From NCBI GenBank assembly GCA_022823775.1, contig JAJEHI010000198.1:1-36603 (forward strand): 36,603 nt of DNA, in the 5' to 3' direction. A program made the position numbers and the translations under genes. This document shows positions 4,962-36,603 of the stretch, piece after piece. Every line of letters starts with the position of its first letter. Position 1 is the first letter of the stretch. This stretch comes from Defluviicoccus sp. (GTDB lineage Bacteria > Pseudomonadota > Alphaproteobacteria > MPNO01). The notes beneath the pieces were generated by a model, which saw nothing but the letters and a program-made list of their open reading frames with translations, was not told the DNA's origin and did no database searches.

Positions 4962-5032
4962 GTCGCTCTCCGAATCTCGGTGCGCCGCGATCTTGCGGCG
5001 TCCGGGGGCACGGTTCAACCGCGACAAGCCGG

Positions 5033-5061
5033 CTGACCCCGCACGGCCGGGGCGGTAGACT
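5033..5061 (+). promoter_or_regulatory. Candidate promoter of the allG-allF operon
   Basis: CTGACC (5033-5038) and TAGACT (5056-5061) are separated by 17 nt and lie about 35 nt upstream of the first gene of the plus-strand ureide operon, which itself has AAAGGAA ahead of its GTG start. Matches to consensus are 4/6 in each box. Found by eye. Confidence 0.33.
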
Positions 5062-5093
5062 AGCGGCCGCGAAAGTCAAAGGAAATTCCGCCG

Positions 5094-5279
5094 GTGGAAG
5101 ACCGCAAGGACCCGATCCAGGACCTGCTCGACGGCCCCGTGGCCGTGATCAATATCGGGCTCGCGCAGTTTGCGCGGACGCTCGAAGGGCAGGGGGTCGC
5201 CGCGGTGCAGGTCGACTGGTGTCCGCCCGCCGGCGGCGACCGGCGGATGATCGATCTTCTGGACAAGCTCGGCGCATGA
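5094..5279 (+). CDS. Stand-alone FdrA-domain protein (detached piece of AllF)
   Basis: A 61-residue protein starting at GTG, with AAAGGAA about 10 nt upstream. The core GPVAVINIGLAQFARTLEGQ followed by VQVDWCPPAGGDRRM resembles the short terminal domain found fused to long FdrA/AllF proteins (motif roughly 'VINVGL..FA..L...G..VVQ.DW.PPAGG'). Here it is a separate gene at the head of the operon, while the main FdrA body is two genes downstream. The stop codon overlaps the ATG of the DUF1116 gene (ATGA, 5276-5279), implying coupled translation. It probably completes the AllF subunit of the carbamoyltransferase; that is inferred from domain composition and linkage. Confidence 0.78.
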   Translation: MEDRKDPIQDLLDGPVAVINIGLAQFARTLEGQGVAAVQVDWCPPAGGDRRMIDLLDKLGA

Positions 5280-6544: not shown

Positions 6545-8031
6545 GCGCCGGCGTCGCCGCGACCCGGACGCGCGCCGGCTTCTATCTCGATTCGGTCGCG
6601 CTGATGCGGATCTCGCAGGCGGTGCAGGATCTCGCCGGGGTCTCCGCTGCGTTCCTGACGATGGGGAGTCCCTCCAACAAGGAATTGTTGCTCGATGCCG
6701 GGCTGCTCGACGCCGGTGCGGAAGCGGCGGGGCCCAACGATCTGGTGATCGCCGTGCGCGCGGACGACCGGGACGCGCTGCGGGCGGCGTTCGAAACGGC
6801 GGAGGCGGCGCTTTCGGGGCCGGCGACCGGAGGTGGGGAAGACTCCGGCTGGAACCCGCGTTCGCTGGAGACCGGGCTCCGCGCGCTTCCCGCCGCCAAC
6901 CTCGCCATCGTTTCCGTCCCCGGCGCATTCGCCGCGCGCGAGGCCCGCCGGGCGCTCGAACGAGGCCTCAACGTGATGCTGTTCTCCGACAACGTCCCGG
7001 TTCGGGAAGAGGTCGCGTTGAAGGCCCTCGCCCGCGAGCGCGGCCTCCTGATGATGGGACCCGACTGCGGGACCGCGATCGTCGCCGGCGCGCCGATCGG
7101 CTTCGCCAACGCGGTGCCGCGCGGCGACATCGGATTGGTCGCGGCCTCCGGCACCGGGTTGCAGGAGGTGGCCTGCCTGATCGCGCGGGCGGGCGGCGGG
7201 ATCAGCCACGGGATCGGCGTGGGGGGCAGGGACCTCGGCGCCGCGGTGGGCGGCGCGATGACGCTGGCGGCGATCGACGCCCTCGACCGGGACGAGGCTA
7301 CCCGCCGTGTCGTCCTGATCTCCAAGCCGCCGGACCCGGACACGGCGAGGCGGATCGCCGACCGGATCGCGGCGAGCCCGAAGCGTTTCACGCTCTGCTG
7401 CATCGGCATGGCCCCCATGGACCTGCCGGAGAACGCCCGGCAGGCGGCCACGCTTCGCGAGGCGGCGGAAGACGCGCTGAAGGGGGCGGGCGGAGCCGAA
7501 CCCGGAGCCACGCTTCGCGAAGCCTCGCGGAGATTCCGCCACGCGAAAGGGTCGGTGCGCGGACTGTTCAGCGGCGGGTCGCTTTGCGCCGAGGCGCAGG
7601 CCGTGCTGATGGCCGCCGGTATCGCCTTCGTCTCCAACGTGCCCATACCCGGGGCGGAGGACGCAAGCTCCGGCCACCGACTGATCGATCTCGGCGCCGA
7701 CGAATTCACTCGCGGGCGGCCCCATCCCATGATCGAGCCCGCCGTGCGGGACGCGCCGTTGAAGGAAGCGCTCGCCGATCCCGATGTCGGCGTCGTGCTG
7801 GTCGATGTGGTTCTCGGCCACGGCTCGCACGAAGATCCCGCCGGCCGGCTCGCCGCGGTGCTCGCCCCGCACGACCGCGAGGCCCCGGTGGTGATCGCGT
7901 CGGTCTGCGGCACCGACCGGGATCCGCAGAACCGCGCCGCTCAGGTCGAAACGCTGCGCGAGGCCGGGGTCGTGGTGGCCGAGTCCAACGCGGGTGCCGC
8001 CGAAACCGCGGCGGCGCTTCTCGCCGGTTGA
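6541..8031 (+). CDS. allF: FdrA-like acyl-CoA synthetase-fold subunit (AllF) of oxamate carbamoyltransferase
   Basis: A 496-residue FdrA-family protein with the fold of succinyl-CoA synthetase alpha/beta: an N-terminal region LTMGSPSNKELLLDAGLL, a Rossmann-like middle (LMMGPDCGTAIVAG; VAASGTGLQEVACL; SHGIGVGGRDLGAAVGG) and a ligase-like C-terminal half (GLFSGGSLCAEAQAVL; HPMIEPAVR; VVLVDVVLGHGSHEDP). The short end domain seen in longer FdrA proteins is missing and is encoded separately at 5094-5279. Translation starts inside the DUF1116 stop (ATGA). The last 91 bp overlap, tail to tail, the C-terminal codons of the DUF2877 gene on the other strand. Role as carbamoyltransferase subunit follows the E. 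coli AllFGH precedent. Confidence 0.9.
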   Translation: MSAGVAATRTRAGFYLDSVALMRISQAVQDLAGVSAAFLTMGSPSNKELLLDAGLLDAGAEAAGPNDLVIAVRADDRDALRAAFETAEAALSGPATGGGEDSGWNPRSLETGLRALPAANLAIVSVPGAFAAREARRALERGLNVMLFSDNVPVREEVALKALARERGLLMMGPDCGTAIVAGAPIGFANAVPRGDIGLVAASGTGLQEVACLIARAGGGISHGIGVGGRDLGAAVGGAMTLAAIDALDRDEATRRVVLISKPPDPDTARRIADRIAASPKRFTLCCIGMAPMDLPENARQAATLREAAEDALKGAGGAEPGATLREASRRFRHAKGSVRGLFSGGSLCAEAQAVLMAAGIAFVSNVPIPGAEDASSGHRLIDLGADEFTRGRPHPMIEPAVRDAPLKEALADPDVGVVLVDVVLGHGSHEDPAGRLAAVLAPHDREAPVVIASVCGTDRDPQNRAAQVETLREAGVVVAESNAGAAETAAALLAG

Positions 8032-8951
8032 GCCCGGAGCCGGCGGCCGATCCCCTTGAGCGCGGAGACCGCGCCCGCCAGCGCGTCCCAGCCGGAGCTG
8101 TGTCCGATCGCATCCAGCCCTCGCAGCGCCTCGGCGAGCGCAGGACCGTCGCCCCGGGCGAGCGCGTCCATGGCGCGATGCAAAGCGTCGGCACCGAGGC
8201 CCTTCGCCGCCGCCCGCAGGTGCGCCGCGCTGATCCGGTTGGTCCCGGCGGGCGCGGCGGCGAGAGCAAGGCGGGCCAGCGCGTCCGCCAGTTCCGGATG
8301 CCCGGACATCGAGAGCGCGATCATGGCTCCCCCGAGATAGTCGTCGCCCGAGGGCGTGAGCCCGGGGCCGAGCCCGATCAGCCGTTCGACGGCGCCGCGC
8401 GGCGGCGATGCTACCGCGCCGTCGGTCAGCCATCGTTCCAGCTCCGAGATCGCCGGTTGCGCTCTCCGCAAGAGCCGGGAACCGGGCGGAAGCGCGGGGT
8501 TTTCCGGCCGGGCGAGGGGCGCAACACCCTCCGAGAGGTCGAAGCCGGAAAGCGCATCGGAGAGTCGCGCGAGCGCTGCGGCGAGGCCGTCGCCGGTCCA
8601 TTCGCGGGGGCCGCGCGGCGGATCGTGCAGCTTCGCTCGGGCGAATGTCAGGACCCGGCGGGCGCCGATCCGGAGTCCCCCGTCCCGAGGCGCGACCGGA
8701 TCGCCCGGCCGCAAGCCCGATTCCCCCCAGTCGGGCATGGCTTCGTCCGGCCCGGTCAGCGCGTTGAGCGGCCCGGCCCCCAGGGCGGCGGGTCCGATGC
8801 AGGCGATGGCGCCCGAACCGGCGTGGGCGAGATAGGCGCTCCGGCGGAATACGGCGAGCACGGAGCCGCCATCGGCCGCGAGCGCCTCGAGACACTTCGC
8901 GGCCTCGCGGCCGACCAGGACGAGCCGGATCGCCGCCGGATCCTCAACCAT
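7941..8951 (-). CDS. allH: DUF2877 protein, AllH/YlbF-type oxamate carbamoyltransferase subunit
   Basis: A 336-residue DUF2877 protein with the hallmark GLGPGLTPSGDDYLGG, followed by TNRISAAHLRAAAKG. In E. coli the homologue (YlbF/AllH) is the third component of the oxamate carbamoyltransferase. I chose ATG 8951 (MVEDPAAIRLVL), which overlaps the carbamate kinase stop by 8 bp and gives a normal N terminus; a frame from 8990 would lie further inside the kinase gene. The C-terminal ~30 residues are low-complexity (Ala/Ser/Pro/Thr) and are encoded in the 91 bp that overlap the end of allF on the plus strand, so this tail is probably a by-product of a lost earlier stop. Confidence 0.88.
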   Translation of the reverse strand: MVEDPAAIRLVLVGREAAKCLEALAADGGSVLAVFRRSAYLAHAGSGAIACIGPAALGAGPLNALTGPDEAMPDWGESGLRPGDPVAPRDGGLRIGARRVLTFARAKLHDPPRGPREWTGDGLAAALARLSDALSGFDLSEGVAPLARPENPALPPGSRLLRRAQPAISELERWLTDGAVASPPRGAVERLIGLGPGLTPSGDDYLGGAMIALSMSGHPELADALARLALAAAPAGTNRISAAHLRAAAKGLGADALHRAMDALARGDGPALAEALRGLDAIGHSSGWDALAGAVSALKGIGRRLRAQPARSAAAVSAAPALDSATTTPASRSVST

Positions 8952-9906
8952 CGCGGACGATATGAGTTCCCGTCCTGCCATCCAGCGCATCGGCCGCGCG
9001 TTCCAGCGGCCCGATCACCACGCGTTTCCCTCCGCGCTCGATGAAATCGATCGCCGCGTCGATCTTGGGTCCCATGCTGCCCGGCGGGAACTGGCCGTCG
9101 TCGCGGTGGGCCTTGATCTCGGCGAGGGTGGCGGATTCGAGGCTGCGCTGGGAGGGCGTGCCGAAGTCGATCGCGACGCGGTCGATGCCGGTCAGGATCA
9201 TGATCGTGTCGATGCCGAGTACCCGGGCCATCATCGCGGAAGTCAAATCCTTGTCGATGACCGCCTCGACGCCCGTCCGCGTGCCGTCGGGGCGGCGCAG
9301 GACCGGGATGCCGCCGCCGCCGCCCGCGATCACCACCGCGCCCCGGGCCGCGAGATCGCGGACCAGCGAGAGGTCGGCGATGTGGCGCGGTCTGGGGGAG
9401 GGGACGACGTGGCGCCAGCCGCGCCCGGAATCCTCGCGCATTTCCCATCCCGTTTCGCGGGCGAGCGCCTTCGCCTCCTCCTCGGAGTAGAAATAGCCGA
9501 TCGGCTTGGTCGGGTCGTCGAAGGCCGGGTCGTCGGGATCGACCTCGACCTGGGTGAGAAGGCAGACCACGTGGCGCGGATCGCCGGCCGTGCGCAGCGC
9601 GTTCTCCATGGCCTGCAGCAGGAGGTAGGCCACCCCGCCCTGGCTGTGGGCGACGCAGATGTCGAGCGACATCGGCGTCACGCGGTTCCGCGCGATCGCC
9701 TGGCGCATCATGATCTTGCCGACGACCGGTCCGTTTCCGTGGGTCACCACCAGCTGGTTGCCCAGGCGCATCAGCGGCAGCAGCGATGCCGCGGTTCGCT
9801 CCGCGTATTCGCGCTGTTCCGCGACGGTGCCGGAGGTGGTCTCCGGGTGGACCGCGTTGCCGCCGATCGCCACCAGGAGACGGTCCGGAATCGGGAAATT
9901 GGCCAA
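8944..9906 (-). CDS. arcC: Carbamate kinase
   Basis: A 320-residue amino-acid-kinase-family enzyme that transfers phosphate from carbamoyl phosphate to ADP, the ATP-yielding last step of oxalurate catabolism. Signatures are LLVAIGGNAVHP at the N terminus, VVTHGNGPVVG, MSLDICVAHSQGGVAYLL, VIAGGGGGIPV, the conserved VEAVIDKDLTSAMMA, and FPPGSMGPKIDAAI near the C terminus; the length matches ArcC/YbcF. The start is TTG at 9906 with AGGAG 9 nt upstream; there is no nearby ATG that preserves the first strand. It lies upstream of allH on the same strand with an 8-bp overlap, matching the ylbF-ybcF linkage of E. coli. Confidence 0.95.
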   Translation of the reverse strand: MANFPIPDRLLVAIGGNAVHPETTSGTVAEQREYAERTAASLLPLMRLGNQLVVTHGNGPVVGKIMMRQAIARNRVTPMSLDICVAHSQGGVAYLLLQAMENALRTAGDPRHVVCLLTQVEVDPDDPAFDDPTKPIGYFYSEEEAKALARETGWEMREDSGRGWRHVVPSPRPRHIADLSLVRDLAARGAVVIAGGGGGIPVLRRPDGTRTGVEAVIDKDLTSAMMARVLGIDTIMILTGIDRVAIDFGTPSQRSLESATLAEIKAHRDDGQFPPGSMGPKIDAAIDFIERGGKRVVIGPLERAADALDGRTGTHIVRDG

Positions 9907-20694: not shown

Positions 20695-21231
20695 TCAGAG
20701 CCACCACTGGATGACGTATTCGTAGGGCCCCTCGCGGTTGACCAGATCGACCCGCTGGAGGGCGATCCGGTAGCCGTCCGGCGTCTTCCTCAGATAGTGG
20801 CGGTATTTGCCGGTGAAGTTGCGCACGTCGTAGCGCAGATATTCCGCGCAGTGGAAGCGCGAGCGCACGACCACGTCGCCGTTCGGGTCCTCGGATTCGA
20901 CGATGACGTTGGAGACCACGTGGCAGAGCCGGTTCTCCGGCGCCTGGCTGTGCGCCTGGGGATGGTTGTTCCGGCGGATCCGCATCTTCATCAGGTTCCG
21001 GTTTTCCCAGAAGATGTTGGGAACCCCCTCGCCGTCCTCCTGATCCTCCGTAACCGGCATCCAGTAATGCCCGTCCTCGGCGAACAGCGCGAGCCATTCG
21101 TCCCACCGCTTCTCGTCGAGGATTTCCGCCTGGCGGTAGAGGAACCGCTCAACCGCGAGCTGGGTCTCGACGCTCACCGGAGCGGACGAGCACCTGTCGC
21201 CCGCCGCCAGCTTTTCCGCTGCTTCGCCCAT
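20695..21231 (-). CDS. Rieske aromatic-ring-hydroxylating dioxygenase, beta subunit (second system)
   Basis: A 178-residue SnoaL-like small subunit: VERFLYRQAEILDEKRWDEW, LFAEDGHYWMPVTEDQ, HVVSNVIVES and the C-terminal YRHYLRKTPDGYRIALQRVDLVN. It follows the alpha gene by 4 nt on the same strand. Similar in layout to the pair at 3154-4961 but clearly diverged, so probably not a recent duplication. Confidence 0.93.
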   Translation of the reverse strand: MGEAAEKLAAGDRCSSAPVSVETQLAVERFLYRQAEILDEKRWDEWLALFAEDGHYWMPVTEDQEDGEGVPNIFWENRNLMKMRIRRNNHPQAHSQAPENRLCHVVSNVIVESEDPNGDVVVRSRFHCAEYLRYDVRNFTGKYRHYLRKTPDGYRIALQRVDLVNREGPYEYVIQWWL

Positions 21232-21235
21232 CGCC

Positions 21236-22561
21236 CTACGCCCCCGCGCCGTTGGCGGTCATGTAGTCCCGCCATGCGTGCATCATCGAGCGCATCGGAA
21301 GCTCGCTCATCGAGGACGGGGCCGAATACATGATCCCGTTCTCCTCGCTGTCCTGGCCCGCGTTGCGGTGGAAGCTCACCCATTCGGTGGCGTTGCTCTC
21401 CAGCCCGTGCTGGCATTTCCACCAGTTGAACAGGTCGTCGGCGTTGACCATCGTCGAGGGCGAGTTCACCAGGTAGTAGTACGCGAGCGAACGCTGGTAG
21501 ATCGCCTCCGGCGCGCCCTTCAGCCGGAAATGCCAGATCTCGCTGAGCGTCCGGTTGGGGCTGAGCGGGCGGATCGTCCGGAGCTGCTGCAACGGCGGCT
21601 GGACGGAATTGCACGGATACAGCAACACGTGGTGGAGATCGACACCGAGGATCTCCTCGGCCTTATCCTCGCCGTAGGACGCATACATGCGTTCGACGTA
21701 TTCGTTGGTGTCGGGATCGTCCGGGCGGAGCCCCATATAGCCTTCCAGCGTGCAGTGGCCCTGCGGGAGGCCGGTGGTGCCGAACTTGTCCCAACCGTCG
21801 ATTCCGTGGCGCACGAAGTCCGACAGGAAGCCGTAGGACATCGGCGGATCCTCGCCGTCCTTCTTCATCTCGTTCTCGACGCTGCGCGCCGCCGCGCCGG
21901 TCGACTCGTGGGTCGCGCCGGGATGCGAGGCGTCGATCTGGTTTTCCAGAAAGAGCTTCCAGTTGGACTGCTGGATCATGTGGAAGCAGTCGCCGACCAC
22001 CTCGATCTCGCCGTCGGGCGAGCGGTCGACGAGCTGGTCCAGCGCCAGCCCGGCGCGCCCCAGATGGGTCTTCAGATCGGGACCGTCCTCGGCCAGAGAG
22101 GCGAACCAGAAGCCGCGATAGTTGTCCGCCCTCGGCGCCTTTCGCAGGTGGAAGGCCGGATCGTTCGGGTCGAACCGCGTGCCCTCGTAGCCCTTGGCGC
22201 CGGGCACGCTGTCGAGCCTTCCGTCGAGCTCGAACATCCAGGCGTGGTAGGAGCAGCGGAACAGCTTGCCCGCGTTCCCCTTGCGCGCCGAGCAGATCTG
22301 CGCGCCGCGATGGGGACAGCGGTTGTAAAGGACGTTGATTTCGCCGTTCCAGTCGCGCGTCATCATCATCGGCTGGCGGCCGACGCGGGCGAGGTAATAG
22401 TCGCCCGGCTCCTTCACCTGGCTTTCGTGGCCGATATAGATCCACAGCCGTTCGAAGATTCGCTCCATTTCCAGGTCGAAGATTTCCGGGTCCACGTAGG
22501 CCTTCCGGTGCACCCGGTCCGGTTCGACCAAGGCGGCGATTTCGCTTTCTGACCAAGTCAT
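21236..22561 (-). CDS. Rieske aromatic-ring-hydroxylating dioxygenase, alpha subunit (second system)
   Basis: A 441-residue catalytic subunit. Rieske ligands: C82/H84 (NRCPHRGAQ) and C103/H106 (CSYHAW). Mononuclear iron site: D210, H213, H218 in ENQIDASHPGATHES. The start at 22561 (MTWSESEIAAL) has GGGAG about 8 nt upstream; a longer frame to 23311 is a shadow of the SDR gene. Family relatives act on aromatic acids or anilines, but the substrate is unknown, and the ferredoxin/reductase are not in the window. Divergent from the SDR gene 99 nt away, which could supply a dehydrogenation step. Confidence 0.94.
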   Translation of the reverse strand: MTWSESEIAALVEPDRVHRKAYVDPEIFDLEMERIFERLWIYIGHESQVKEPGDYYLARVGRQPMMMTRDWNGEINVLYNRCPHRGAQICSARKGNAGKLFRCSYHAWMFELDGRLDSVPGAKGYEGTRFDPNDPAFHLRKAPRADNYRGFWFASLAEDGPDLKTHLGRAGLALDQLVDRSPDGEIEVVGDCFHMIQQSNWKLFLENQIDASHPGATHESTGAAARSVENEMKKDGEDPPMSYGFLSDFVRHGIDGWDKFGTTGLPQGHCTLEGYMGLRPDDPDTNEYVERMYASYGEDKAEEILGVDLHHVLLYPCNSVQPPLQQLRTIRPLSPNRTLSEIWHFRLKGAPEAIYQRSLAYYYLVNSPSTMVNADDLFNWWKCQHGLESNATEWVSFHRNAGQDSEENGIMYSAPSSMSELPMRSMMHAWRDYMTANGAGA

Positions 22562-22660
22562 TTCTTTTCTCCCGCAGGCGGCGCGATCATTGCGGCTCGC
22601 CGCGCAATTGACTAGAGCATTTTCGCCGGAAATGGAATCCATCCGGGGGAGAACGGAACA

Positions 22661-23443
22661 GTGGGCGATTTCGACGACCGTGCGGTGCTCATCACCGGCC
22701 CGGCCAAGGGCATGGGGGCGCAAATCACGCGGCGATTTGCCGAGGACGGCGCGAACCTCGTGCTCGCCGGGCGGGATACCGCTGCAATCGAACCGGTCGC
22801 CGGGGAAGCCCGGGCGCTGGGGCGCGGCGCCATCGTCGCGCCCTGCGACGTGACCGATGCGAAGGCGGTCGAGGCAACGGTCCAGGCGGGGCTCGACGCG
22901 TACGGCAAGATCGACGTGCTGGTCAACGTGGCCGGCGGCACCGGCCCGCTGGGCGCGCCGTCCTGGGAGATTGAGCCGGACGATTTCGACGGGATCGTCG
23001 AACTGAACATGAAGGGGGCGTGGCTCACCATGCGCGCGGCGATCCCGCACATGATGGAGCGGCGCTACGGCAAGATCGTCAATGTCGGCGGCACTTTCGG
23101 GCTGCGCGGCCGCCAGGGACGGATGGCCTATTCCGCCTCCAAGTGGGGACTGCGCGGGATCACCAAGTCGACCGCGCTCGAGGTCGGGCCGCACAACATC
23201 AACGTCAACTGCGTCTGCCCCGGCATGGTCGACGGGCCGCGCTTCCGCAAGGTCTGCGCCGAGCGCGCCGAACGTCTCGGCATCACCGCCGAAGAGGCGC
23301 GCCGGCAGCACGAGGACGAATACGCGCTCAAGCGGATCTCAACCGATTCGGACGTCGCCGAGGCGGTGCTCTTTTTCGCCAGCGACCGTGCCCGTAACAT
23401 CACCGGCCAGGACTTGGCCGTAGACGGCGGCTGGGTGATTTAG
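22661..23443 (+). CDS. Short-chain dehydrogenase/reductase (SDR)
   Basis: A 260-residue classical SDR: cofactor motif TGPAKGMG (12-19), NVAGG (89-93), active-site Y157 and K161 in YSASK, and the C-terminal ITGQDLAVDGGWVI. The usual catalytic serine position (IxSxxG) reads NVGGTFG, with Gly144 and a Thr one residue later, so the triad is non-standard. GTG start with a GGGGAGAACGG stretch upstream. The amidohydrolase gene follows after 10 nt, an operon. The substrate is unknown; a dihydrodiol or alcohol from the adjacent Rieske enzyme is one possibility (inference). Confidence 0.92.
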   Translation: MGDFDDRAVLITGPAKGMGAQITRRFAEDGANLVLAGRDTAAIEPVAGEARALGRGAIVAPCDVTDAKAVEATVQAGLDAYGKIDVLVNVAGGTGPLGAPSWEIEPDDFDGIVELNMKGAWLTMRAAIPHMMERRYGKIVNVGGTFGLRGRQGRMAYSASKWGLRGITKSTALEVGPHNINVNCVCPGMVDGPRFRKVCAERAERLGITAEEARRQHEDEYALKRISTDSDVAEAVLFFASDRARNITGQDLAVDGGWVI

Positions 23444-27906: not shown

Positions 27907-27946
27907 ACCCCTCACCGCTATGCCGTCCGTGCTAATGTCCGGGCCC

Positions 27947-29377
27947 ATGCCGAAGGACAGGTCGATACCGCGTTCCTCGATCCCGTCGGTCGACCGGCTG
28001 CTGGATATGCCGGGCCTGCGGACGGCGGCGGAACGTCATGGCCGGACGCTGGTTGTCGAGGCAGCGCGGGAGATTCTGGACGAGGTCAGGCGCTCCATCG
28101 CAACCGGCGCCGAGACCGATCCCGGCGCGGTCGAGCCGCCGGTCCTCGCCGCCAGGATCGCGGCGCGGGCGGCCAAGGCGGCGTCGCCCTCGCTCAGGCC
28201 CGTCTTCAACCTTACGGGGACCGTGCTCCACACCAATCTCGGGCGGGCCGGCCTCGCACAGGAGGCGATCGACGCGGTTGTCGAGGCGGCAGCGCGGCCC
28301 TCCACGCTGGAATACGATGTCGGTCGGGCCGGACGCGGCGATCGCGACGGCCATGTGGAGGGTCTGCTCCGTCGTCTCACCGGCGCCGAGGCCGCGACGG
28401 TCGTGAACAACAACGCCGCCGCGGTCCTCATCGTCCTGTCCACTCTCGCCAAGGGGCGCGAGGTGCCGGTCTCGCGCGGCGAGCTGGTCGAGATCGGCGG
28501 CTCGTTCCGCATGCCCGACGTGATGGCGGAGGCGGGCTGCATCCTGCGCGAGGTCGGCACGACCAACCGCACCCACCTGCGGGATTTCTCGGCCGCGATC
28601 GGCGAGGAAACCGCTATGGCGATGAAGATCCACGCGAGCAACTACGCGATCCAGGGCTTCACGGCCGAAGTGCCGGAAGCCGAGCTCGCGGCGCTCTGCC
28701 GGGAGCGCGGGATCCCTTTCGCGGTGGATTTGGGGAGCGGCGCGCTGGTCGAGCTGGAGCGCTATGGGCTCGCGCACGAAACGACCGTACGAGAGACGCT
28801 GGCCGCCGGCGCCGACCTCGTGACCTTCAGCGGCGACAAGCTGCTCGGCGGTCCTCAGGCCGGGCTGATCGTCGGCCGAACCGACCTGATCGCCGAGATC
28901 AAGCGCAATCCGCTCAAGCGCGCGCTCAGGCTCGACAAGATGACGCTCGCGGCGCTCGCAGCCACGCTCGCCCTCTATCTCGATCCCGACCGCATCGCCG
29001 GGCGCCTGCCCACGCTGCGGCACCTGACCCGCCCGGCCGACCGGATCGCGGATCTCTGCGCGGAGCTTGCGCCGGCGGTCCGCGACGGCGTCGGCCCCGG
29101 CTTCGACGTCGAAACCCGGCCGTGTCTCAGCCAGATCGGCAGCGGCGCGCTTCCGGTAGCGAGCATCCCGAGCCACGCCATCGCGATCGCGCCGACGGCC
29201 GCACGAAGAGGCGGAGCGCTCAAGCGGCTGGCCGCGACCCTCGCGGCGCTCCCGGTGCCGGTCATCGGGCGCATCGCCGACGGCGTGTTGATACTCGACC
29301 TCCGTTGCCTCGACGACGCGGACGGGTTCCGCGCCCAGATGGCCGAACTCTCTATCGGAGGCACACCGGAAAAATGA
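27947..29377 (+). CDS. selA: L-seryl-tRNA(Sec) selenium transferase SelA
   Basis: A 476-residue PLP enzyme that converts seryl-tRNA(Sec) to selenocysteinyl-tRNA(Sec) using selenophosphate. Matches to E. coli SelA run end to end: VFNLTGTVLHTNLGRAGL, VVNNNAAAVLIVL, VSRGELVEIGGSFRMPDVM, EVGTTNRTH, DLGSGALVEL, the PLP lysine K298 in FSGDKLLGGPQAG, KRALRLDKMTLAAL, CLSQIGSGALPV and PVIGRIADGVLILDLRCL. Three in-frame ATGs are possible (27920, 27935, 27947), none with a good ribosome site; I chose 27947 because it gives the E. coli spacing to SVDRLL. It overlaps selB by 4 bp (ATGA). Confidence 0.97.
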   Translation: MPKDRSIPRSSIPSVDRLLDMPGLRTAAERHGRTLVVEAAREILDEVRRSIATGAETDPGAVEPPVLAARIAARAAKAASPSLRPVFNLTGTVLHTNLGRAGLAQEAIDAVVEAAARPSTLEYDVGRAGRGDRDGHVEGLLRRLTGAEAATVVNNNAAAVLIVLSTLAKGREVPVSRGELVEIGGSFRMPDVMAEAGCILREVGTTNRTHLRDFSAAIGEETAMAMKIHASNYAIQGFTAEVPEAELAALCRERGIPFAVDLGSGALVELERYGLAHETTVRETLAAGADLVTFSGDKLLGGPQAGLIVGRTDLIAEIKRNPLKRALRLDKMTLAALAATLALYLDPDRIAGRLPTLRHLTRPADRIADLCAELAPAVRDGVGPGFDVETRPCLSQIGSGALPVASIPSHAIAIAPTAARRGGALKRLAATLAALPVPVIGRIADGVLILDLRCLDDADGFRAQMAELSIGGTPEK

Positions 29378-31314
29378 TCGTGGCGACCGCGGGTCACGTC
29401 GACCACGGCAAGACGTCGCTGGTGCGCGCGCTGACCGGTATCGACACCGACCGCCTGCCGGAAGAGAAGCGGCGCAATCTGACCATCGACCTCGGCTTCG
29501 CCTACGTCCCGCTGGAAGGCGGCACGGTGCTGGGCTTCGTCGACGTGCCCGGCCATGAGCGATTCATCCGCAACATGCTGTGCGGCGTGGCGGCGGTCGA
29601 TTACGCGCTGCTCGTGGTGGCGGCCGACGACGGGGTGATGCCCCAGACGGAGGAGCATCTGGCGATCCTGGATCTGCTCGGTGTCGAAGCGGGCGCGGTG
29701 GCGATCACCAAGACCGACCGGGTCGATCCCGGCCGGGTCGACGAGGCGGTCGAGGAAGTCGAGCTCTATCTCGACGAGACCCGGCTCGCGGGCGCGCCCT
29801 GCTTCCCGGTCTCCTCGGTGGACGGCAGCGGGATAGAGACGCTGAAGGCGCATCTCGAAGCGGCGGCCGCGGAGGTCCGGCATCGCCCGGCGGGCGGTCA
29901 TTTCCGCCTGGCCGTCGACAGGGCGTTCACAGTGGTCGGCGCCGGGCTCGTGGTCACCGGAACGGCGTTCTCGGGAAGCGTGTCGGTCGACGACCGGCTG
30001 CTTCTCTCTCCGGCGCGGATACCGGTGCGCGTGCGGGGCATCCACGCCCAGGACCGCAAGGCGGAGCGCGGCCGCGCCGGGGAGCGTTTGGCACTCAACA
30101 TCGTCGGCCAGTCGCTCGGCAAGGACGATGTCGCGCGCGGCGATTGGGTGGTGGCGGAACCGGCGCACCTGCCGGTTCGGAGAATCGACGCAACGGTCCG
30201 CATCCTCGGCGACGAAACCCGCCCGGTCGCACACTGGACTCCGGTTCACGTCCACCTCGCCGCCGCCGACGTCACGGGAAGGCTCGCGTTGCTCGAAGCC
30301 CGGTCCCTGGCACCCGGAGAGTCCGGCCTCGCCCAGCTCGTGCTCGACCGGCCGATCGGCGCGATGCACGGCGACCGCTTCGTGCTGCGCGACCAGTCGG
30401 CGACGCGCACCATAGGCGGCGGGACCGTGGTGGATGTGCTTCCGCCGGCCCGGGGACGGGCCAGGCCGGCGCGTCTCGCCTACCTTAAGGCGGTGCGGGA
30501 GCCGGACGCCGCCGCCGCGCTGCAAGCGGCGGTGAACGCCGCGGTGGAGGCGGTCGACCTGGTCAAGTTCGCTCGCGCCCGAAACCTGACCGAATCGGCG
30601 CGCGAAGAGGTCTTTGCCGCGGCGGATACGGTACGGCTCGGGGACGGCGAGCGCGATGTCGCGCTCTCGCGCATGCGCTGGGCGGAACAGAAGTCGAGCG
30701 TCGCGGCGGCGCTCGCCCGCTGGCACGAGCGCAACGAGGACGCCGTCGGGCCGACCGAAGCCAATCTGCGCTCCGCGATGGAACCCCGCATTTCGGTCGA
30801 TCTCCTGCGGCTCGCCATTCCGGAACTGGAGCGCGAGGGGGTGCTGGTCCGGGAGGGCGCGCGGGTGAGGCTGCCCGGCCACCGGCCCAAAATGACCGCG
30901 GCCGACGAGACGTTGTGGCATTCCCTGGAAGCCATTTTGCGAGACGGCGGCAACCGGCCTCCGCTGGTCAGCGAGATCGCCGAAGAGACCGGGTACGAAT
31001 CCCGGCGGATCGCCGCCTTCCTGGGCCGCGCCGCGAAGCTGGGCCTCGTGGTGGGGGCGACGAAAAACCGCTACTACCTGCCCGCCGCGCTGCGCGGTCT
31101 CGCCGACAGCCTGGAACGGGTGGCCGCCGAGTCCGCGGACGGCACCGTCACCGCCGCGTCTTTCCGGGACAGGGCGGGAATCGGCCGCAACCTCGCCATC
31201 GAGGTGCTCGAATATTTCGACAAGATCCGCTTCACCCGGCGCTCCGGCAACGAGCGCAAGATCCTCCGCCCGGCGGACGAGGCGTTCGGCGGCGGCGCGG
31301 GACCGGAGGCCTGA
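29374..31314 (+). CDS. selB: Selenocysteine-specific translation elongation factor SelB
   Basis: A 646-residue GTPase that delivers Sec-tRNA(Sec) to UGA codons marked by a SECIS element. G1 is [10 protein letters not shown] (6-15), G3 DVPGHERF (57-64), G4 ITKTDRVD (111-118); an EF-Tu-like domain II/III region follows ([15 protein letters not shown]), and four winged-helix SECIS-binding segments fill the C-terminal ~270 residues ([61 protein letters not shown]). Length is normal for SelB (600-650). ATGA overlap with selA gives coupled translation. It ends 12 nt from the convergent enoyl-CoA hydratase gene. Confidence 0.97.
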
Positions 31315-31326
31315 TCGCTCGCTCGA

Positions 31327-32199
31327 TCAACACGAACTCCCGATCGGCCTGTCCCGGGTCCAGTCCCAGGTCCCGCCGTCGCGTTCCCGCACGGCCTGCT
31401 TCCAGCCGACCTCCCGGGCCCGCTTCGTGAAGTTCAGGCCTTCCGGCGAGTGTCGGGCGATCCCGTCGAAGATCGTCGCGAGCCGCTGGGTGTTCATGAG
31501 GCCGGTCGCCTCGATCGCCTGGTTGATGACGAGTTTCTGCATGGCCAGCTGGTTGACCGGCACGCCCGCCATGCGCCGGGCAAGCGCCCCCACCTCGTCG
31601 TCGAGCGCCTCGGCGGGTACTGCCTTCAGCACGAGGCCCATCTCCGCCGCCTCCCTGCCGGCGATCCTGTCGCCTGTGAACAGCAGCCTCTTCGCCTTTT
31701 CCGGCCCCAGCCGGTAGACCCACATGGCCGTCGTGGGGCAGCCCCAGACCCGCGCCGGCATGTAGCCGATCTCCGCGTCCTCGGCGATCAGCGTCAGGTC
31801 GGCGCACAGCGCGATGTCGGAACCGCCGGCGAGCGCGAGGCCGTGCACCTTGCAGATCACCGGCTTCAGCGCCCGCCAGAGCGACATGAAATGCTGGGTG
31901 TTCGCCCACATGAACGCGTAGTCCCGGATCGGGTCCCAGGGCATCTCCTGACCGACATAGCCGCCGTCGCCGCCGCCTTCGGGTCCGCTCGCATAACGCT
32001 TCAGATCGTAGCCGGCGCAGAAGGCCCGTCCGGCGCCCGAGAGCAACATGACGTGGACATCCGGATCCGCGTCGGCCCGGGCGACCGCGTCGGAAAGCGC
32101 GCTCGGAATTTCGTCGTCGATGGCGTTCAGCACCTCGGGACGGTTGAGGGTGATCCGTGCGATCCGCCCGTCGCGCTCATACAGCACACTCGTCGTCAT
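31327..32199 (-). CDS. Enoyl-CoA hydratase/isomerase (crotonase) family protein
   Basis: A 290-residue crotonase-fold enzyme acting on an acyl-CoA. The oxyanion-hole segments are GAGRAFCAGYDLKRY and VHGLALAGGSDIALCADL; ITLNRPEVLNAIDD is the typical N-terminal strand. The active-site loop reads AEIGYMPARVWGCPTTAMW rather than the usual PE...G-P, so hydratase activity is not assured. I chose ATG 32199 (MTTSVLYERDG) with GGAG about 6 nt upstream over the ATG at 32211. It sits between selB and selC on the opposite strand and has no obvious link to selenium. Confidence 0.9.
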   Translation of the reverse strand: MTTSVLYERDGRIARITLNRPEVLNAIDDEIPSALSDAVARADADPDVHVMLLSGAGRAFCAGYDLKRYASGPEGGGDGGYVGQEMPWDPIRDYAFMWANTQHFMSLWRALKPVICKVHGLALAGGSDIALCADLTLIAEDAEIGYMPARVWGCPTTAMWVYRLGPEKAKRLLFTGDRIAGREAAEMGLVLKAVPAEALDDEVGALARRMAGVPVNQLAMQKLVINQAIEATGLMNTQRLATIFDGIARHSPEGLNFTKRAREVGWKQAVRERDGGTWDWTRDRPIGSSC

Positions 32200-32234
32200 C
32201 CCGGTCTCCAATCATTCCTCGTCATGATCCGCGG

Positions 32235-32264
32235 TTGACGCGGCCGCCGTCCCGCCCGCACTCT
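32235..32264 (+). promoter_or_regulatory. Candidate promoter of the tRNA-Sec gene
   Basis: TTGACG (32235-32240) is a 5/6 match to a -35 box, 34 nt before the tRNA 5' end, the expected distance for a tRNA promoter. The -10 region (about 32258-32264, GCACTCT) is a poor match. Found by eye. Confidence 0.28.
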
Positions 32265-32273
32265 CCCGGCCGA

Positions 32274-32369
32274 GGAAAAGAATCGCGGCCCGGTGGCCCG
32301 CCCGGTCTTCAAAACCGGTGAGGGGCGTGAGACGTCCCTGGTGGGTTCGACTCCCACTCTTTTCCGCCA
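32274..32369 (+). tRNA. selC: Selenocysteine tRNA, tRNA-Sec (anticodon UCA)
   Basis: A 96-nt tRNA with the 8-bp acceptor stem diagnostic of tRNA-Sec: GGAAAAGA (32274-32281) pairs fully with TCTTTTCC (32358-32365), then discriminator G and encoded CCA (32367-32369). The anticodon stem CCGGT/ACCGG (32302-32306/32314-32318) encloses CTTCAAA, giving TCA at 32309-32311. An extended GC-rich D arm, a long variable arm (GAGGGGCGTGAGACGTCCC) and GGTTCGACTCC in the T arm are all present, much as in E. coli selC. The convergent DUF1116 gene ends only 4 nt away and no terminator is visible between them. Confidence 0.97.
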
Positions 32370-32373
32370 TTTC

Positions 32374-33618
32374 TCACGGAACCCCGTAGCGCTCCTCGTA
32401 AGCCGCGACCGCGGCCTCGAAGCATTCGATGGGCGCGCGCACGATACCGGCGCCGATCTGCCCGCCGTCCCGTCCGGCGATGCCGATGTCCATCACCGGA
32501 AGCACGCCGGTATCGACCACGCGGTGGATGTCGATGCCGGTAGGCGTTCCGCGATAGCCCAGATACGGGATCCTGTAGTCGGAATTCTCGCCGACGGTAA
32601 TCGCATAGAGCTGGAGGTTGCGCTCGACCATCGCCGCCGCCGATCCGCCCTGATATTGCTGCAGCGGAAACGCGGCGGCCTGCGCGAAGCCGCCCAGGCC
32701 GACCGTCTCGGCGATGACGCTCTCGCCGCCCATCCAGGTAATCTCGTCTTCGGTGTGCCCCTCGAACAGCCTGGCGTCGATCGACGCGTGCGGCCCGAGG
32801 AACCATCGGTCGCCCAGCCCGCCGACCCGGATGGCGAAATTGCTGCAGTTGAACGCCATCGCGCTGACGACGCTCGAACCCTCGATACCGGCGGCGCCAT
32901 CGGCGGTGCACTTGGCGGCGGCCATCGACAGCCGGAGGAAGAAATAGTGGTCCTCGGTGAGCGCGGCCACGGTCCCTTCGACGGCGTCGCGCATCGCCGA
33001 ATCGAGACCGAGAAAATGGGGGAATAATTCGCGGGTGAACAGGAGCGAAGCCGCCGTGTTGCGGCTGTGCAACTCGTCGCCCATGTGCAGCGCGCGCCGC
33101 ATGATAGGTTTCAGCGCGATGCCCCCGGCGGCGCGGACGGCCTGGGCCAGGACGGGGGCGATGACGTCCTGGACGAACAGCAGCCGCTCCTTCACCCCCT
33201 CGTCGTAGACACCGTAATTTAGGCGGCGCGGATCGGTCCCCTCGTACATGTTGCAGAATCCGGTATTGCCGTGCGCCCGGTTCTCGACGACGAACACCGG
33301 CATCGAGGCGGTGTAGATGCCGGCGAGAGAGCCGACCGCGCCGTAATCGTGGCAACCGTCGACGACGATCCCGCCGTTCTCGAATTTCCGGACCGCATCC
33401 TCCCGGTCGGACGCGAGCCCCTCGAACAGGGCGCCGCCGATCAACGCGTCTCGCTGTCCGCCGACATAGCCGTTCCAGGGCATCGGCGGACCCGAAGTCA
33501 GAACGGTGTTCGGCGTCATTCCCGGCAGCGCCTCGATCGCCGGAACGACGTCGGTCAGCACGGGCTCCGCCTCGCAGAGGCGCACGAATGCGAGCTCGTT
33601 CGCGTCAGTCCTGTTCAT
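32374..33618 (-). CDS. Stand-alone DUF1116 (AllG/YlbE-like) paralogue
   Basis: A 414-residue DUF1116 protein, paralogous to AllG at 5276-6544. Shared landmarks are the HDYGAVGSLAGIYTASMPVFVVENRAHGN region, RRALHMGDELHSRN, IEGSSVVSAMAFN, VGGLGDRWFLGP, GTPTGIDIHRVVDTG and GQIGAGIVRAPIECFE. Differences: HPNHHFDAVGPMTG of AllG reads CHDYGAVGSLAG here. No FdrA or DUF2877 gene is adjacent, so it may form a different enzyme or borrow partners. Start at 33618 (MNRTDANELAF) follows GGGATGGA; a longer frame reaches 33675. It is divergent from the Rieske/flavoprotein operon (130 nt apart). Family certain, function unknown. Confidence 0.88.
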   Translation of the reverse strand: MNRTDANELAFVRLCEAEPVLTDVVPAIEALPGMTPNTVLTSGPPMPWNGYVGGQRDALIGGALFEGLASDREDAVRKFENGGIVVDGCHDYGAVGSLAGIYTASMPVFVVENRAHGNTGFCNMYEGTDPRRLNYGVYDEGVKERLLFVQDVIAPVLAQAVRAAGGIALKPIMRRALHMGDELHSRNTAASLLFTRELFPHFLGLDSAMRDAVEGTVAALTEDHYFFLRLSMAAAKCTADGAAGIEGSSVVSAMAFNCSNFAIRVGGLGDRWFLGPHASIDARLFEGHTEDEITWMGGESVIAETVGLGGFAQAAAFPLQQYQGGSAAAMVERNLQLYAITVGENSDYRIPYLGYRGTPTGIDIHRVVDTGVLPVMDIGIAGRDGGQIGAGIVRAPIECFEAAVAAYEERYGVP

Positions 33619-33662
33619 TCCATCCCGGCCCGTTTTCGCGCCCGCCGTCGGGCGGGCCGCGG

Positions 33663-33691
33663 TTGCCATCACCATGGCCCGGGGCTAGTCT
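33663..33691 (+). promoter_or_regulatory. Candidate promoter of the VanA-like/TcuA-like operon
   Basis: TTGCCA (33663-33668, 5/6), 17-nt spacer, TAGTCT (33686-33691), about 57 nt upstream of the ATG at 33749 in the divergent gap to the DUF1116 paralogue. Found by eye. Confidence 0.4.
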
Positions 33692-33748
33692 TTGCCGCAA
33701 GGGCCGCGACCGGCCCGCCGGCAGAAACGTCAACCTGGAGCGCTTGGA

Positions 33749-34819
33749 ATGGCCGCGGATACCACTAATCTGCCCTTCGTCAGAAACGCCTGGTACATCG
33801 GAGCGTGGTCGGAAGAGCTCGAGAGCGGAATGCTCGGGCGGACGATCATGAACCAGCCGCTGGTCTTCTTCCGCGACGCGGACGGCAAGGTGGGTGCTTT
33901 GGAGGACCGGTGCTGCCACCGGGGCGCCCCGCTGACCCACGGCACGGTGATCGAGACCGGCCTCCAGTGCGGCTATCACGGGCTCGTCTACGACACCACC
34001 GGCGCCTGCGTGACGGTCCCGGGCCAGGACAGGATTCCGCCGGAAGCGCGGGTGGTGAGCTACCCGATCATCGAGCGCAACCAGATCGTCTGGATCTGGA
34101 TGGGCGATCCGGCGCGCGCCGACGAGAGCCAGATCGTCGACTACCCCTATCACGACCAGCCCGAAAAGTGGCCGCATCGCAAGGCGATGTTCCAGATCAA
34201 GGCCAACTACATGCTGATGATCGACAACCTGATGGATCTGACGCATCTGGGTTATGTCCACGGCCGGACGATCGGCGGCGATCCCAACGCCCATGTCGAG
34301 GCCGACATGGAGACGAGGCCGACCGAGAACGGCGCCTATTTCATCCGCTGGCTGCCGGATTGCCAGCCGCCGCCTACCTACGTGAAGGGCGGGCAGTTTA
34401 CTGGCCGCGTGGATCGCTGGCAGGAGTTCGAGTACGTGGCGCCTGGGATCGTGCTCCAGTGGTCCGGCGCCCTCGAAGTCGGCCGTGGCGCGAGAGAAAA
34501 CCGCGACCAGAAGGGCTTCCATCTGCGCCTGCTGCACGGCGCGACGCCGGAGACCGAAACGACCTTCCACTATTTCTGGTCGACCTCGAACGGCTACCGC
34601 CAAGACGAGCCGCAGGCGACCCAGGACATGTACGACGAGATCTACCCGACCTTCATCGAGGACAAGACGATCATGGAGGCGCAGCAGGAGCGCCTCGACC
34701 TCGATCCCGACCGCAGCCTCGTGCCGATCAACGCCGACGGCGCGCTCGCGCTCGCCCGGATCGCCATCGACCGGATGATCGCGCGGGAGCAGGCGACGGT
34801 CGCCCAGGCCGCCGAATAG
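33749..34819 (+). CDS. Single-component Rieske oxygenase, vanillate O-demethylase oxygenase (VanA)-like
   Basis: A 356-residue Rieske non-heme iron oxygenase of the O-/N-demethylase group. Rieske ligands C55/H57 (DRCCHRGAP) and C74/H77 (CGYHGL); mononuclear iron site D163, H166 and H171 in NLMDLTHLGYVH. VanA-type enzymes work without a beta subunit but need a flavin/[2Fe-2S] reductase (VanB), which is not present here. ATG 33749 follows GGAG at 12 nt with TTGGA nearer; PFVRNAWYIGAW at the N terminus is typical of the group. Probably cotranscribed with the flavoprotein 82 nt downstream. Substrate unknown. Confidence 0.9.
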   Translation: MAADTTNLPFVRNAWYIGAWSEELESGMLGRTIMNQPLVFFRDADGKVGALEDRCCHRGAPLTHGTVIETGLQCGYHGLVYDTTGACVTVPGQDRIPPEARVVSYPIIERNQIVWIWMGDPARADESQIVDYPYHDQPEKWPHRKAMFQIKANYMLMIDNLMDLTHLGYVHGRTIGGDPNAHVEADMETRPTENGAYFIRWLPDCQPPPTYVKGGQFTGRVDRWQEFEYVAPGIVLQWSGALEVGRGARENRDQKGFHLRLLHGATPETETTFHYFWSTSNGYRQDEPQATQDMYDEIYPTFIEDKTIMEAQQERLDLDPDRSLVPINADGALALARIAIDRMIAREQATVAQAAE

Positions 34820-34901: not shown

Positions 34902-36380
34902 ATGAGCGACCCGGAGTTCGATGTCGTCGTCGTGGGCGCCGGCAACGCGGCGTTGTGCGCCGCGCTGGCGGCGGAGGAGAACGGCGCTAAGGTGCTGGTG
35001 CTGGAACGCGCCAACGAGGACGAATCCGGCGGCAATTCGCGCTTCACGGCCGGCGCGATGCGTGTCGTCTATGACGGGGTCGACGACCTCAAGGCATTGA
35101 TGCCCGACCTCACCAACGAGGAAATCGCCAATACCGATTTCGGCACCTACACCCAGGACCAGTTCTACGATGACATGGCCCGGGTCACGCAGTACCGCGC
35201 CGATCCGGACATGGTCGAGCTGCTGGTCACGCGCTCGCGCGAAACGCTCCTTTGGATGCGCGAGAAAGGGGTGCGCTTCGCGCCCATCTGGGGCCGCCAG
35301 GCATTCAAGGTCGACGGCAAGTTCAAGTTCTGGGGCGGTCTCACGGTAGAGGCTTGGGGCGGCGGTCCGGGGCTGGTCGATTCGCTGCACGAGATCGCCA
35401 GCAAGCGTGGCATCGAGATCCGCTACGGTCACCGCGCCACGGAGCTGATCTTCGACGGCGTGACGGTGAGCGGAGTCAAGGTGAAGACCGGGGGCCGGAT
35501 CGAAGATATCCCGGCGAAGGCGGTGGTGCTCGCCGCCGGCGGCTTCCAGGGCAACTACGAATGGCGAACGCGCTATCTCGGTCCGGGCTGGGAGCTCGCC
35601 AAGGTGCGCGGGACCCGGTTCAACACCGGCGACGGCATCCGCATGGCGCTCGACATCGGCGCGATGCCCTACGGCAACTGGTCGGGCTGCCACGCCGTCG
35701 GATGGGAGCGCAACGCGCCGGAGTTCGGCGATCTCGCGGTGGGCGATCAGTTCCAGAAGCACAGCTACCCGTTCGCCGTCATGGTCAACGCGACGGGGCG
35801 GCGCTTCGTCGACGAAGGGGCGGATTTCCGCAACTACACCTACGCCAAGTACGGCAGGGTGATCCTCGAGCAGCCGGGGCAGTTCGCCTGGCAGATCTTC
35901 GACGCCAAGGTCCTCCATCTGAAACGCGACGAATACAACATCCGCCAGATCACCAAGGCGACCGCGAACACGCTGGAAGAGCTCGCCCCGCAGCTCGACG
36001 GGGTCGACCCGGACGCCTTTCTGGACGAGATAAAGGCCTACAACGCCGCCGTCCGCACCGACGTCCCGTTCGACCCCAACGTCAAGGACGGGCGCCGCAC
36101 GGAGGGGCTCGCCATTCCGAAGTCGAACTGGGCCAACACGATCGACGAACCGCCGTTCGAAGCCTACGCGGTGACCTGCGGCATCACGTTCACCTTCGGA
36201 GGTTTGCGGATCGATACCGAGGGACAGGTGCTCGACACCGAGTCCGAGCCGATACCCGGCCTCTATGCGGCAGGCGAGCTGGTCGGCGGCATATTCTATT
36301 TCAACTACCCGGGCGGCAGCGGGCTGACCTCCGGCTCGGTGTTCGGCCGCATCGCCGGCGCCTCGGCCGCAACTGCGTAG
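34902..36380 (+). CDS. FAD-dependent dehydrogenase, tricarballylate dehydrogenase (TcuA)-like
   Basis: A 492-residue flavoprotein of the fumarate reductase/succinate dehydrogenase flavoprotein superfamily. The FAD-binding motif is VVVVGAGNAALCAALAA (8-24) followed by LVLERA; the ESGGNSRFTAGAMR segment matches TcuA-like proteins. A central capping domain (~125-340) and the C-terminal GITFTFGGLRID...IPGLYAAGELVGGIF...GGSGLTSGSVFGR complete the fold. TcuA oxidises tricarballylate to aconitate; the substrate here may be a different carboxylate or steroid-like compound. The start has TTGGAGA about 7 nt upstream. It follows the VanA-like gene and is followed by a partial gene after 20 nt. Confidence 0.87.
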   Translation: MSDPEFDVVVVGAGNAALCAALAAEENGAKVLVLERANEDESGGNSRFTAGAMRVVYDGVDDLKALMPDLTNEEIANTDFGTYTQDQFYDDMARVTQYRADPDMVELLVTRSRETLLWMREKGVRFAPIWGRQAFKVDGKFKFWGGLTVEAWGGGPGLVDSLHEIASKRGIEIRYGHRATELIFDGVTVSGVKVKTGGRIEDIPAKAVVLAAGGFQGNYEWRTRYLGPGWELAKVRGTRFNTGDGIRMALDIGAMPYGNWSGCHAVGWERNAPEFGDLAVGDQFQKHSYPFAVMVNATGRRFVDEGADFRNYTYAKYGRVILEQPGQFAWQIFDAKVLHLKRDEYNIRQITKATANTLEELAPQLDGVDPDAFLDEIKAYNAAVRTDVPFDPNVKDGRRTEGLAIPKSNWANTIDEPPFEAYAVTCGITFTFGGLRIDTEGQVLDTESEPIPGLYAAGELVGGIFYFNYPGGSGLTSGSVFGRIAGASAATA

Positions 36381-36400: not shown

Positions 36401-36603
36401 GTGCCGGTCATCGTCGCCGAGAACGATCCGATCATCCGTAACATCCAAGTCGTCCTCGACCCGGACACGCCTTCCGACCGGCAGGACGCGATCGCCGACT
36501 ATTTTTCGGTCGACCTGCCGGATTTCGACGCCTGGCGGGACGAATTGCGTGCCCGGGTTCCTACGGTCTTCCCGGCCGAGTTCCGCATGGCCGACGATGC
36601 GGA
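36401..36603 (+). CDS. 5' part of an unassigned gene (runs off the right edge)
   Basis: From GTG 36401, with AAGGAG 6 nt upstream, an open frame of 67 codons continues to the window end. It begins MPVIVAENDPIIRNIQVVL and includes RQDAIADYFSVDLPDFDAW. The N terminus is reminiscent of D-isomer-specific 2-hydroxyacid dehydrogenases, but too little is visible to be sure. The 20-nt gap to the flavoprotein stop indicates the same operon. Confidence 0.6.
   Translation, partial: MPVIVAENDPIIRNIQVVLDPDTPSDRQDAIADYFSVDLPDFDAWRDELRARVPTVFPAEFRMADDA

Follow-up and report, generated by a model that had tools for sequence, protein, structure and literature searches.

An AllG-type protein encoded apart from AllF and AllH

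What can an AllG-type protein do where its usual partners are missing from the locus? In E. coli, AllG (YlbE) belongs to the oxamic transcarbamylase AllFGH, for which all three subunits are needed, and deletion of any one of the AllF, AllG or AllH genes abolishes oxamate formation (PMC11326118). The window analyzed here, a whole contig of 36,603 bases (C147) from a Defluviicoccus genome of 4.8 Mb, encodes an ordinary AllG and also a stand-alone homolog, which we refer to as AllG3. Among named genomes, its nearest relatives are Defluviicoccus MAGs. The initial annotation had described the latter as a lone, full-length DUF1116 paralogue, divergent from a VanA-like Rieske oxygenase and a TcuA-like dehydrogenase, and our domain and profile matches bear this description out. 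The locus contains the following features:

32274–32369, plus strand: tRNA-Sec, tail to tail with AllG3; same position in four further genus members
32374–33618, minus strand: AllG3, stand-alone AllG/DUF1116 protein of 414 aa; PF06545 match, separate clade, AF2 model matching 3clq
33619–33748, no strand: intergenic/promoter region separating AllG3 from the divergent Rieske gene, from the alignment of five Defluviicoccus genomes
33749–34819, plus strand: VanA-type Rieske oxygenase; PF00355 and PF19112; same position in all genus members
34902–36380, plus strand: TcuA-like FAD dehydrogenase (flavoprotein); NF006130 at 600 bits, cut-off 369; same position in all genus members
36401–36603, plus strand: start of a D-2-hydroxyacid dehydrogenase gene, truncated by the contig end; matches the complete gene at 92% over 67 aa

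AllG3 is an intact, full-length member of the AllG/DUF1116 family. The PF06545 profile matches it as one domain over positions 1–215 of 215 (246.5 bits against a gathering cut-off of 27 bits, E 2.7e-73), and the codon-position GC pattern of the ORF is that of a real gene. The ORF spans 32374–33675 on the minus strand, with translation starting either at the ATG at 33618, which is likely, or at an in-frame upstream ATG at 33675. Neither AllF nor AllH was found adjoining AllG3, judging by the gene content of the window and by profile matches. The Rieske gene, of the Rieske/VanA_C domain type, starts at an ATG within an ORF listed from 33692.

This divergent arrangement of AllG3 with the VanA-type Rieske and TcuA-like genes is present in all five members of the genus (the window and four others). 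Across the four other members, AllG3 and its two divergent neighbors are 86–98% identical, TcuA being 94–98% identical, and the operon of the relatives continues past the D-2-hydroxyacid dehydrogenase gene with MmgE/PrpD and cupin genes. Alignment of the five genomes also reveals a conserved stretch, GGGGCTAGTCT, upstream of AllG3 and the Rieske gene, in their putative promoter region. On the other side, tRNA-Sec ends five bases away from the AllG3 stop codon; this adjacency, of which only the synteny was examined, is not thought to be part of AllG3 function.

The tRNA-Sec gene belongs to a selA-selB-tRNA-Sec island (27920–32369), in which an enoyl-CoA hydratase gene separates selB from selC. 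Genes for the alpha and beta subunits of a ring-hydroxylating dioxygenase lie further away, at 20695–23311.

AllG3 forms a separate clade of the AllG family

Phylogenetic analysis places AllG3 in a separate, previously unseparated deep clade of the AllG (DUF1116) family. In a careful IQ-TREE analysis of 63 sequences, a single branch sets 28 AllG3 sequences apart, with UFBoot/SH-aLRT support of 100/100 and a stem length near 1 substitution per site. A quick tree built from 87 sequences recovered 32 AllG3 rows with an SH-aLRT support of 100% and a stem of 1.43. A DUF1116 phylogeny had been put forward earlier as a check for a separate clade, and the answer is a fully supported one (100/100) on a stem of 1.0–1.4 substitutions per site.

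AllG3 is found in many Alphaproteobacteria and also in Actinobacteria, namely in Asanoa ishikariensis (58% identity) and on Rhodococcus plasmids (64–65%). One AllG3 row labelled Acidobacteriota is nearly the same as a Defluviicoccus sequence and probably represents a mis-binned contig (L030). In Pfam, all DUF1116 proteins carry the label of an oxamate carbamoyltransferase subunit, and the AllG3 clade indicates that this label misfits part of the family.

Most AllG3 hosts lack both AllF and AllH

In the 87-sequence tree, AllF adjoins 48 other AllG rows versus none of the 32 AllG3 rows, with searched flanks of about 1.5 to 14 kb, varying by locus. Weak matches to the AllF profile (at most 56 bits) span only positions 104–332 and resemble succinyl-CoA-synthetase-type proteins. 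A carbamate-kinase query gave no match in AllG3 loci, while it matched beside many AllF-linked AllGs.

According to profile searches, AllH and full-length AllF are both absent from 17 of the 23 distinct AllG3 genomes, four pairs with identical match coordinates having been counted as duplicates; AllG3 thus occurs without AllF and AllH in most of its hosts. The genomes surveyed are mostly draft MAGs, although three of these 17 (G119, G143 and G236) are rated 99–100% complete. The other six genomes, that of the window among them, have both AllF and AllH, and in the three of them that were checked (G000, G084 and G222) AllF adjoins another AllG. The window itself holds such a locus, whose ordinary AllG, AllG1, serves as an in-window control:

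5312–6541, plus strand: AllG1, ordinary AllF-linked AllG; PF06545 at 301 bits, placed among AllF-linked AllGs in the tree
6544–8028, plus strand: AllF of the AllG1 locus; Ligase_CoA domain, 840 bits to the AllF profile
7944–8990, minus strand: AllH of the AllG1 locus; PF11392, 81 bits

An amino-acid-kinase gene is also present in the AllG1 locus, beside AllF and AllH, and a third AllG of the genome, on contig C101, likewise has an AllF. AllG1 and AllG3 of the window share 41% identity.

The AllF of the AllG1 locus seems to be split (4937–8028): AllG1 is preceded by a short N-terminus-like ORF and followed by the main AllF. The short ORF is 38% identical to the AllF N-terminus over 62 aa, and comparable fragments are present in other Alphaproteobacteria. 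The AllH and amino-acid-kinase genes (7944–9906) are opposite in strand to AllF, convergent with it and overlapping its 3' end, and a third Rieske gene (3678–5027) adjoins AllG1.

AllG3 retains the AllG fold and switches conserved residues

The AF2 model of AllG3 (pLDDT 88.7) adopts the fold of 3clq, a DUF1116 protein from Enterococcus faecalis (TM 0.92, Z 53, 36% identity), and AllG3 has the same PF06545 domain and fold as E. coli AllG. 3clq is also the only close structural match: Foldseek and VIA-align searches with the AllG3 model returned no other credible one, and a remote fold relative that could reveal the mechanism was not among their results.

We compared the 32 AllG3 sequences with the 48 AllF-linked AllGs in E. 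coli numbering, taking positions conserved at 93% or more within each group. Sixty-two positions are identical and conserved in both groups. Twelve others are fixed differently, reading from AllF-linked AllG to AllG3: H47T, M57Y, M104L, R139N, R261F, G263C, D301M, D304E, M318Q, V328Q, A336M and H388G, with a two-residue deletion in AllG3 near the last of these. AllG3 has thereby lost four cationic or histidine residues (His47, Arg139, Arg261 and His388) and gained an invariant cysteine; its invariant set, in model numbering, comprises Cys258, Gln313, Gln323 and Glu299. The segment HPNHHFDAVG of AllG1, earlier reported as altered, indeed reads DGCHDYGAVG in AllG3. Unlike AllG3, 3clq keeps AllG-type states at the main switches even though it comes from another phylum.

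Judging by their position and conservation, the switched residues may line one pocket or active site, and the active site of AllG3 probably differs from that of ordinary AllG. Compared with E. coli AllFGH, AllG3 is set apart by the absence of AllF and AllH, the twelve fixed substitutions, its separate clade and its different neighbors. Because it occurs without AllF and AllH, belongs to a separate clade and has conserved residues switched, AllG3 is unlikely to be a subunit of an oxamate carbamoyltransferase. The same features point to an enzyme with a new substrate or one that works alone, as the initial annotation had suggested.

A glutamine-synthetase-family ligase is the recurrent neighbor of AllG3

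That suggestion had also taken the Rieske/TcuA pair as part of the defining gene set, and here it does not stand. The pair is kept in all five Defluviicoccus members but was found in no AllG3 locus outside the genus, and within 1.5 kb of 29 TcuA-like loci in other Alphaproteobacteria, with homologs 70–78% identical, neither a VanA-type gene nor AllG3 was found. We therefore rejected Rieske/TcuA as a conserved AllG3 partner set, its association with AllG3 being confined to Defluviicoccus. The partner that does recur, a ligase of the glutamine-synthetase (GS) family, had been missed.

A GS-family gene is present in the locus in 20 of the 32 AllG3 rows, and the linkage spans Alphaproteobacteria, Asanoa and the Rhodococcus plasmids. 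Many AllG3 orthologues at 66–73% identity adjoin this ligase rather than Rieske/TcuA. The two genes are most commonly divergent; the ligase can also lie upstream and co-directional (L046, L068) or downstream and co-directional (L039, L069, Rhodococcus), and in L052 two ligases and an SDR gene lie upstream of AllG3. Since the linkage recurs in differing gene orders, it points to function rather than to inherited order.

Among 385 alphaproteobacterial genomes, full AllG3 occurs in nine, and all nine encode the ligase class, versus 18 of the 385 overall. The two genes are adjacent in seven of the nine genomes, and G084 carries two AllG3 genes, each adjoined by its own ligase. The co-occurrence becomes nine of ten when a contig-edge AllG3 fragment of G012, a genome without the ligase at the threshold, is counted. 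One-sided Fisher tests gave p values of 1e-13 at the genome level, 1e-11 at the genus level and 2e-7 at the family level; the G012 fragment is counted at the genus and family levels, families are taken as 149, and relatedness is only partly removed by this grouping.

The remaining surroundings are diverse. One set of neighbors comprises TetR, an APC permease, a metallophosphoesterase, alpha/beta hydrolases and an agmatinase-like gene; another a GbcA-like Rieske gene, a D-2-hydroxyacid dehydrogenase and PhyH dioxygenases; and a third SDRs and a flavin monooxygenase. Rieske genes also lie near AllG3 in several GS-linked loci. The constant pair consists of AllG3 and a GS-family, mostly amine-glutamylating ligase, and the oxidizing enzymes vary. 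Because the other neighbors differ between loci, no single substrate fits them all.

A further example is a Rhodococcus plasmid cluster (L123:7686–25346), which combines AllG3 with two GS-like genes, a glutaminase, a gamma-glutamyl-GABA hydrolase family gene, an APC permease, a flavin monooxygenase, an esterase and an acetate-CoA ligase, and which looks like an amine-degradation cluster. A 344-aa hypothetical protein encoded between AllG3 and the ligases was considered as a substitute for AllF/AllH and has no Pfam match.

The linked ligase resembles amine-glutamylating enzymes

Most AllG3-linked ligases belong to TIGR03105, and the closest PDB entries are glutamate-methylamine ligase (9qur) and GmaS (7cql). 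We aligned the ligase of L048 with 7cql, 9qur and true glutamine synthetase chains, and found that Thr replaces the ammonia-binding Asp50' and that the Glu-flap carries Trp. GmaS likewise lacks the Asp50' Asp and the Glu-flap Glu of true glutamine synthetase (PMC7948447). Because these two positions are changed as in GmaS, the ligase sequence suggests that the substrate is an amine rather than ammonia. In L049, L052 and the Rhodococcus plasmids, the ligases are of another kind, GS-like pairs that are more distant.

The recurrent neighbor of AllG3 is thus a GmaS-like ligase of the type known from the N-methylglutamate pathway, of which, to our knowledge, DUF1116 proteins are no described part. 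A search of a limited set of papers for DUF1116 together with gamma-glutamylation found none that links the two, which is not proof of absence. A route in which a Rieske oxygenase acts after glutamylation is established for aniline and 1-naphthylamine, the AtdA/NpaA dioxygenase systems using a GS-like ligase together with the oxygenase (PMC11335346). Gene classes similar to those of AtdA/NpaA and of the isopropylamine pathway (Ipu) are found near several AllG3 loci, whereas AtdA/NpaA as described use a glutamine-amidotransferase-like enzyme and no DUF1116 protein.

In Defluviicoccus, the tie is weaker than in the orthologues, because the ligase is encoded on a different contig from AllG3 in all five members (C144 in the genome of the window) and falls in a sister subclade of the GS tree, which is also present in genomes without AllG3. 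This placement led us to reject a one-to-one co-evolving AllG3-ligase pair in the genus. In L033, the closest AllG3 relative outside the genus, the best ligase match reached 382 bits and none was in the strong class. In all five members, a second VanA-type Rieske gene lies divergent to the GmaS-like ligase of Defluviicoccus (L059:7830–10375), a layout that mirrors that of AllG3.

Proposed role of AllG3 and alternative explanations

We propose that AllG3 works as a DUF1116 enzyme on its own, in gamma-glutamylation-type amine catabolism, and not as an oxamate carbamoyltransferase subunit, a proposal that we consider about equally likely to be right or wrong. It draws on the deep separate clade, the independence from AllF and AllH, the replacement of conserved cationic residues and the recurrent association with the ligase. 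A GmaS-type or related GS-family ligase would join glutamate onto an amine or amine-bearing compound, pathway-specific oxidases (Rieske, PhyH-type or flavin monooxygenase, differing by locus) would alter the glutamylated product, and AllG3 would act on the amine or on the glutamylated compound by transferring or hydrolyzing an acyl or amide group. We infer that AllG3 and the ligase share a substrate, that the chemistry is of the acyl/amide type and that the clade-specific invariant cysteine may play a role in it. AllG3 probably serves amine breakdown rather than allantoin breakdown. Its role in Defluviicoccus itself is less certain, the pairing with the ligase being one of co-occurrence only; there, the VanA-type Rieske/TcuA operon would supply the oxidizing genes with the ligase encoded elsewhere, which is the weakest point of the proposal. 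We also advance, tentatively and as unlikely, that AllG3 could be the first DUF1116 enzyme to consist of a single subunit. In this reading, which covers its alphaproteobacterial and actinobacterial hosts, a Cys-centered site would have replaced the carbamoyl-phosphate site and would act on gamma-glutamyl amides by hydrolysis or by transfer of an acyl group other than carbamoyl; none of the known amine pathways is described with such a step.

Several other explanations have to be weighed against this. AllG3 could be a carbamoyltransferase that acts as a single subunit and uses a new acceptor or donor, for instance converting a substituted urea and phosphate to carbamoyl phosphate and an amine that the ligase then captures. 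Such an amine product would account for the adjacent amine ligase, the fold is that of AllG, the 62 positions invariant in both groups imply that part of the active core is shared, and the loss of cationic residues could reflect another carbamoyl acceptor and not another reaction. However, the residues lost, His47, Arg139, Arg261 and His388, are fixed in nearly all AllF-linked AllGs, and the carbamate-kinase query found no match in AllG3 loci; we regard this explanation as possible but unlikely. The loss of the AllG-type cationic residues would also be compatible with a non-catalytic binding or regulatory protein, which we consider very improbable, since the new strictly conserved set of Cys258, Gln313, Gln323 and Glu299 is what would be expected of an active site.

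In Defluviicoccus, AllG3 might instead belong, with the VanA-Rieske, TcuA, hydroxyacid dehydrogenase, PrpD and cupin genes, to a lineage-specific oxygenated-acid pathway unrelated to glutamylation. Conservation of the arrangement in all five genus members, with a nearly identical TcuA, and the location of the ligase elsewhere favor this idea, but the many orthologues at 66–73% identity that have the ligase instead, and the Rieske genes near AllG3 in several GS-linked loci, which may make both contexts one theme, leave it rather improbable. As the genome of the window encodes AllF and AllH, AllG3 could also be an alternative AllG subunit that uses those of the AllG1 locus to form a second oxamate-type transcarbamylase. 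Borrowing of AllF and AllH from another locus is ruled out for most AllG3 genomes by the 17 of 23 that have neither, and with the fixed residues changed and the clade separate, this last explanation is largely refuted and, to us, scarcely credible.

For amine catabolism, the proposal we prefer, the recurrent ligase neighbor offers a concrete lead to a DUF1116 function outside allantoin metabolism, and AllG3 points to a possibly unrecognized component of bacterial amine degradation, Rhodococcus plasmids included.

Other DUF1116 genes

Our survey also brought up other DUF1116 loci. Seven AllG-like sequences (L085, L086, L088, L089, L090, L102 and L120) are without AllF in their short flanks and fall outside the AllG3 clade, some of them on very long branches. 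Many plasmids of E. coli and other enterobacteria (H4, H6–H9 and others), mostly conjugative, carry DUF1116 genes about 42% identical to AllG3. On the Aminobacter IncP plasmid pSR8 (L126:6244–11337), AllF, AllG, a ring-opening amidohydrolase and a carbamate kinase are encoded together, with no AllH annotated; this cluster may represent a transcarbamylase that acts on a ureido acid from ring cleavage.
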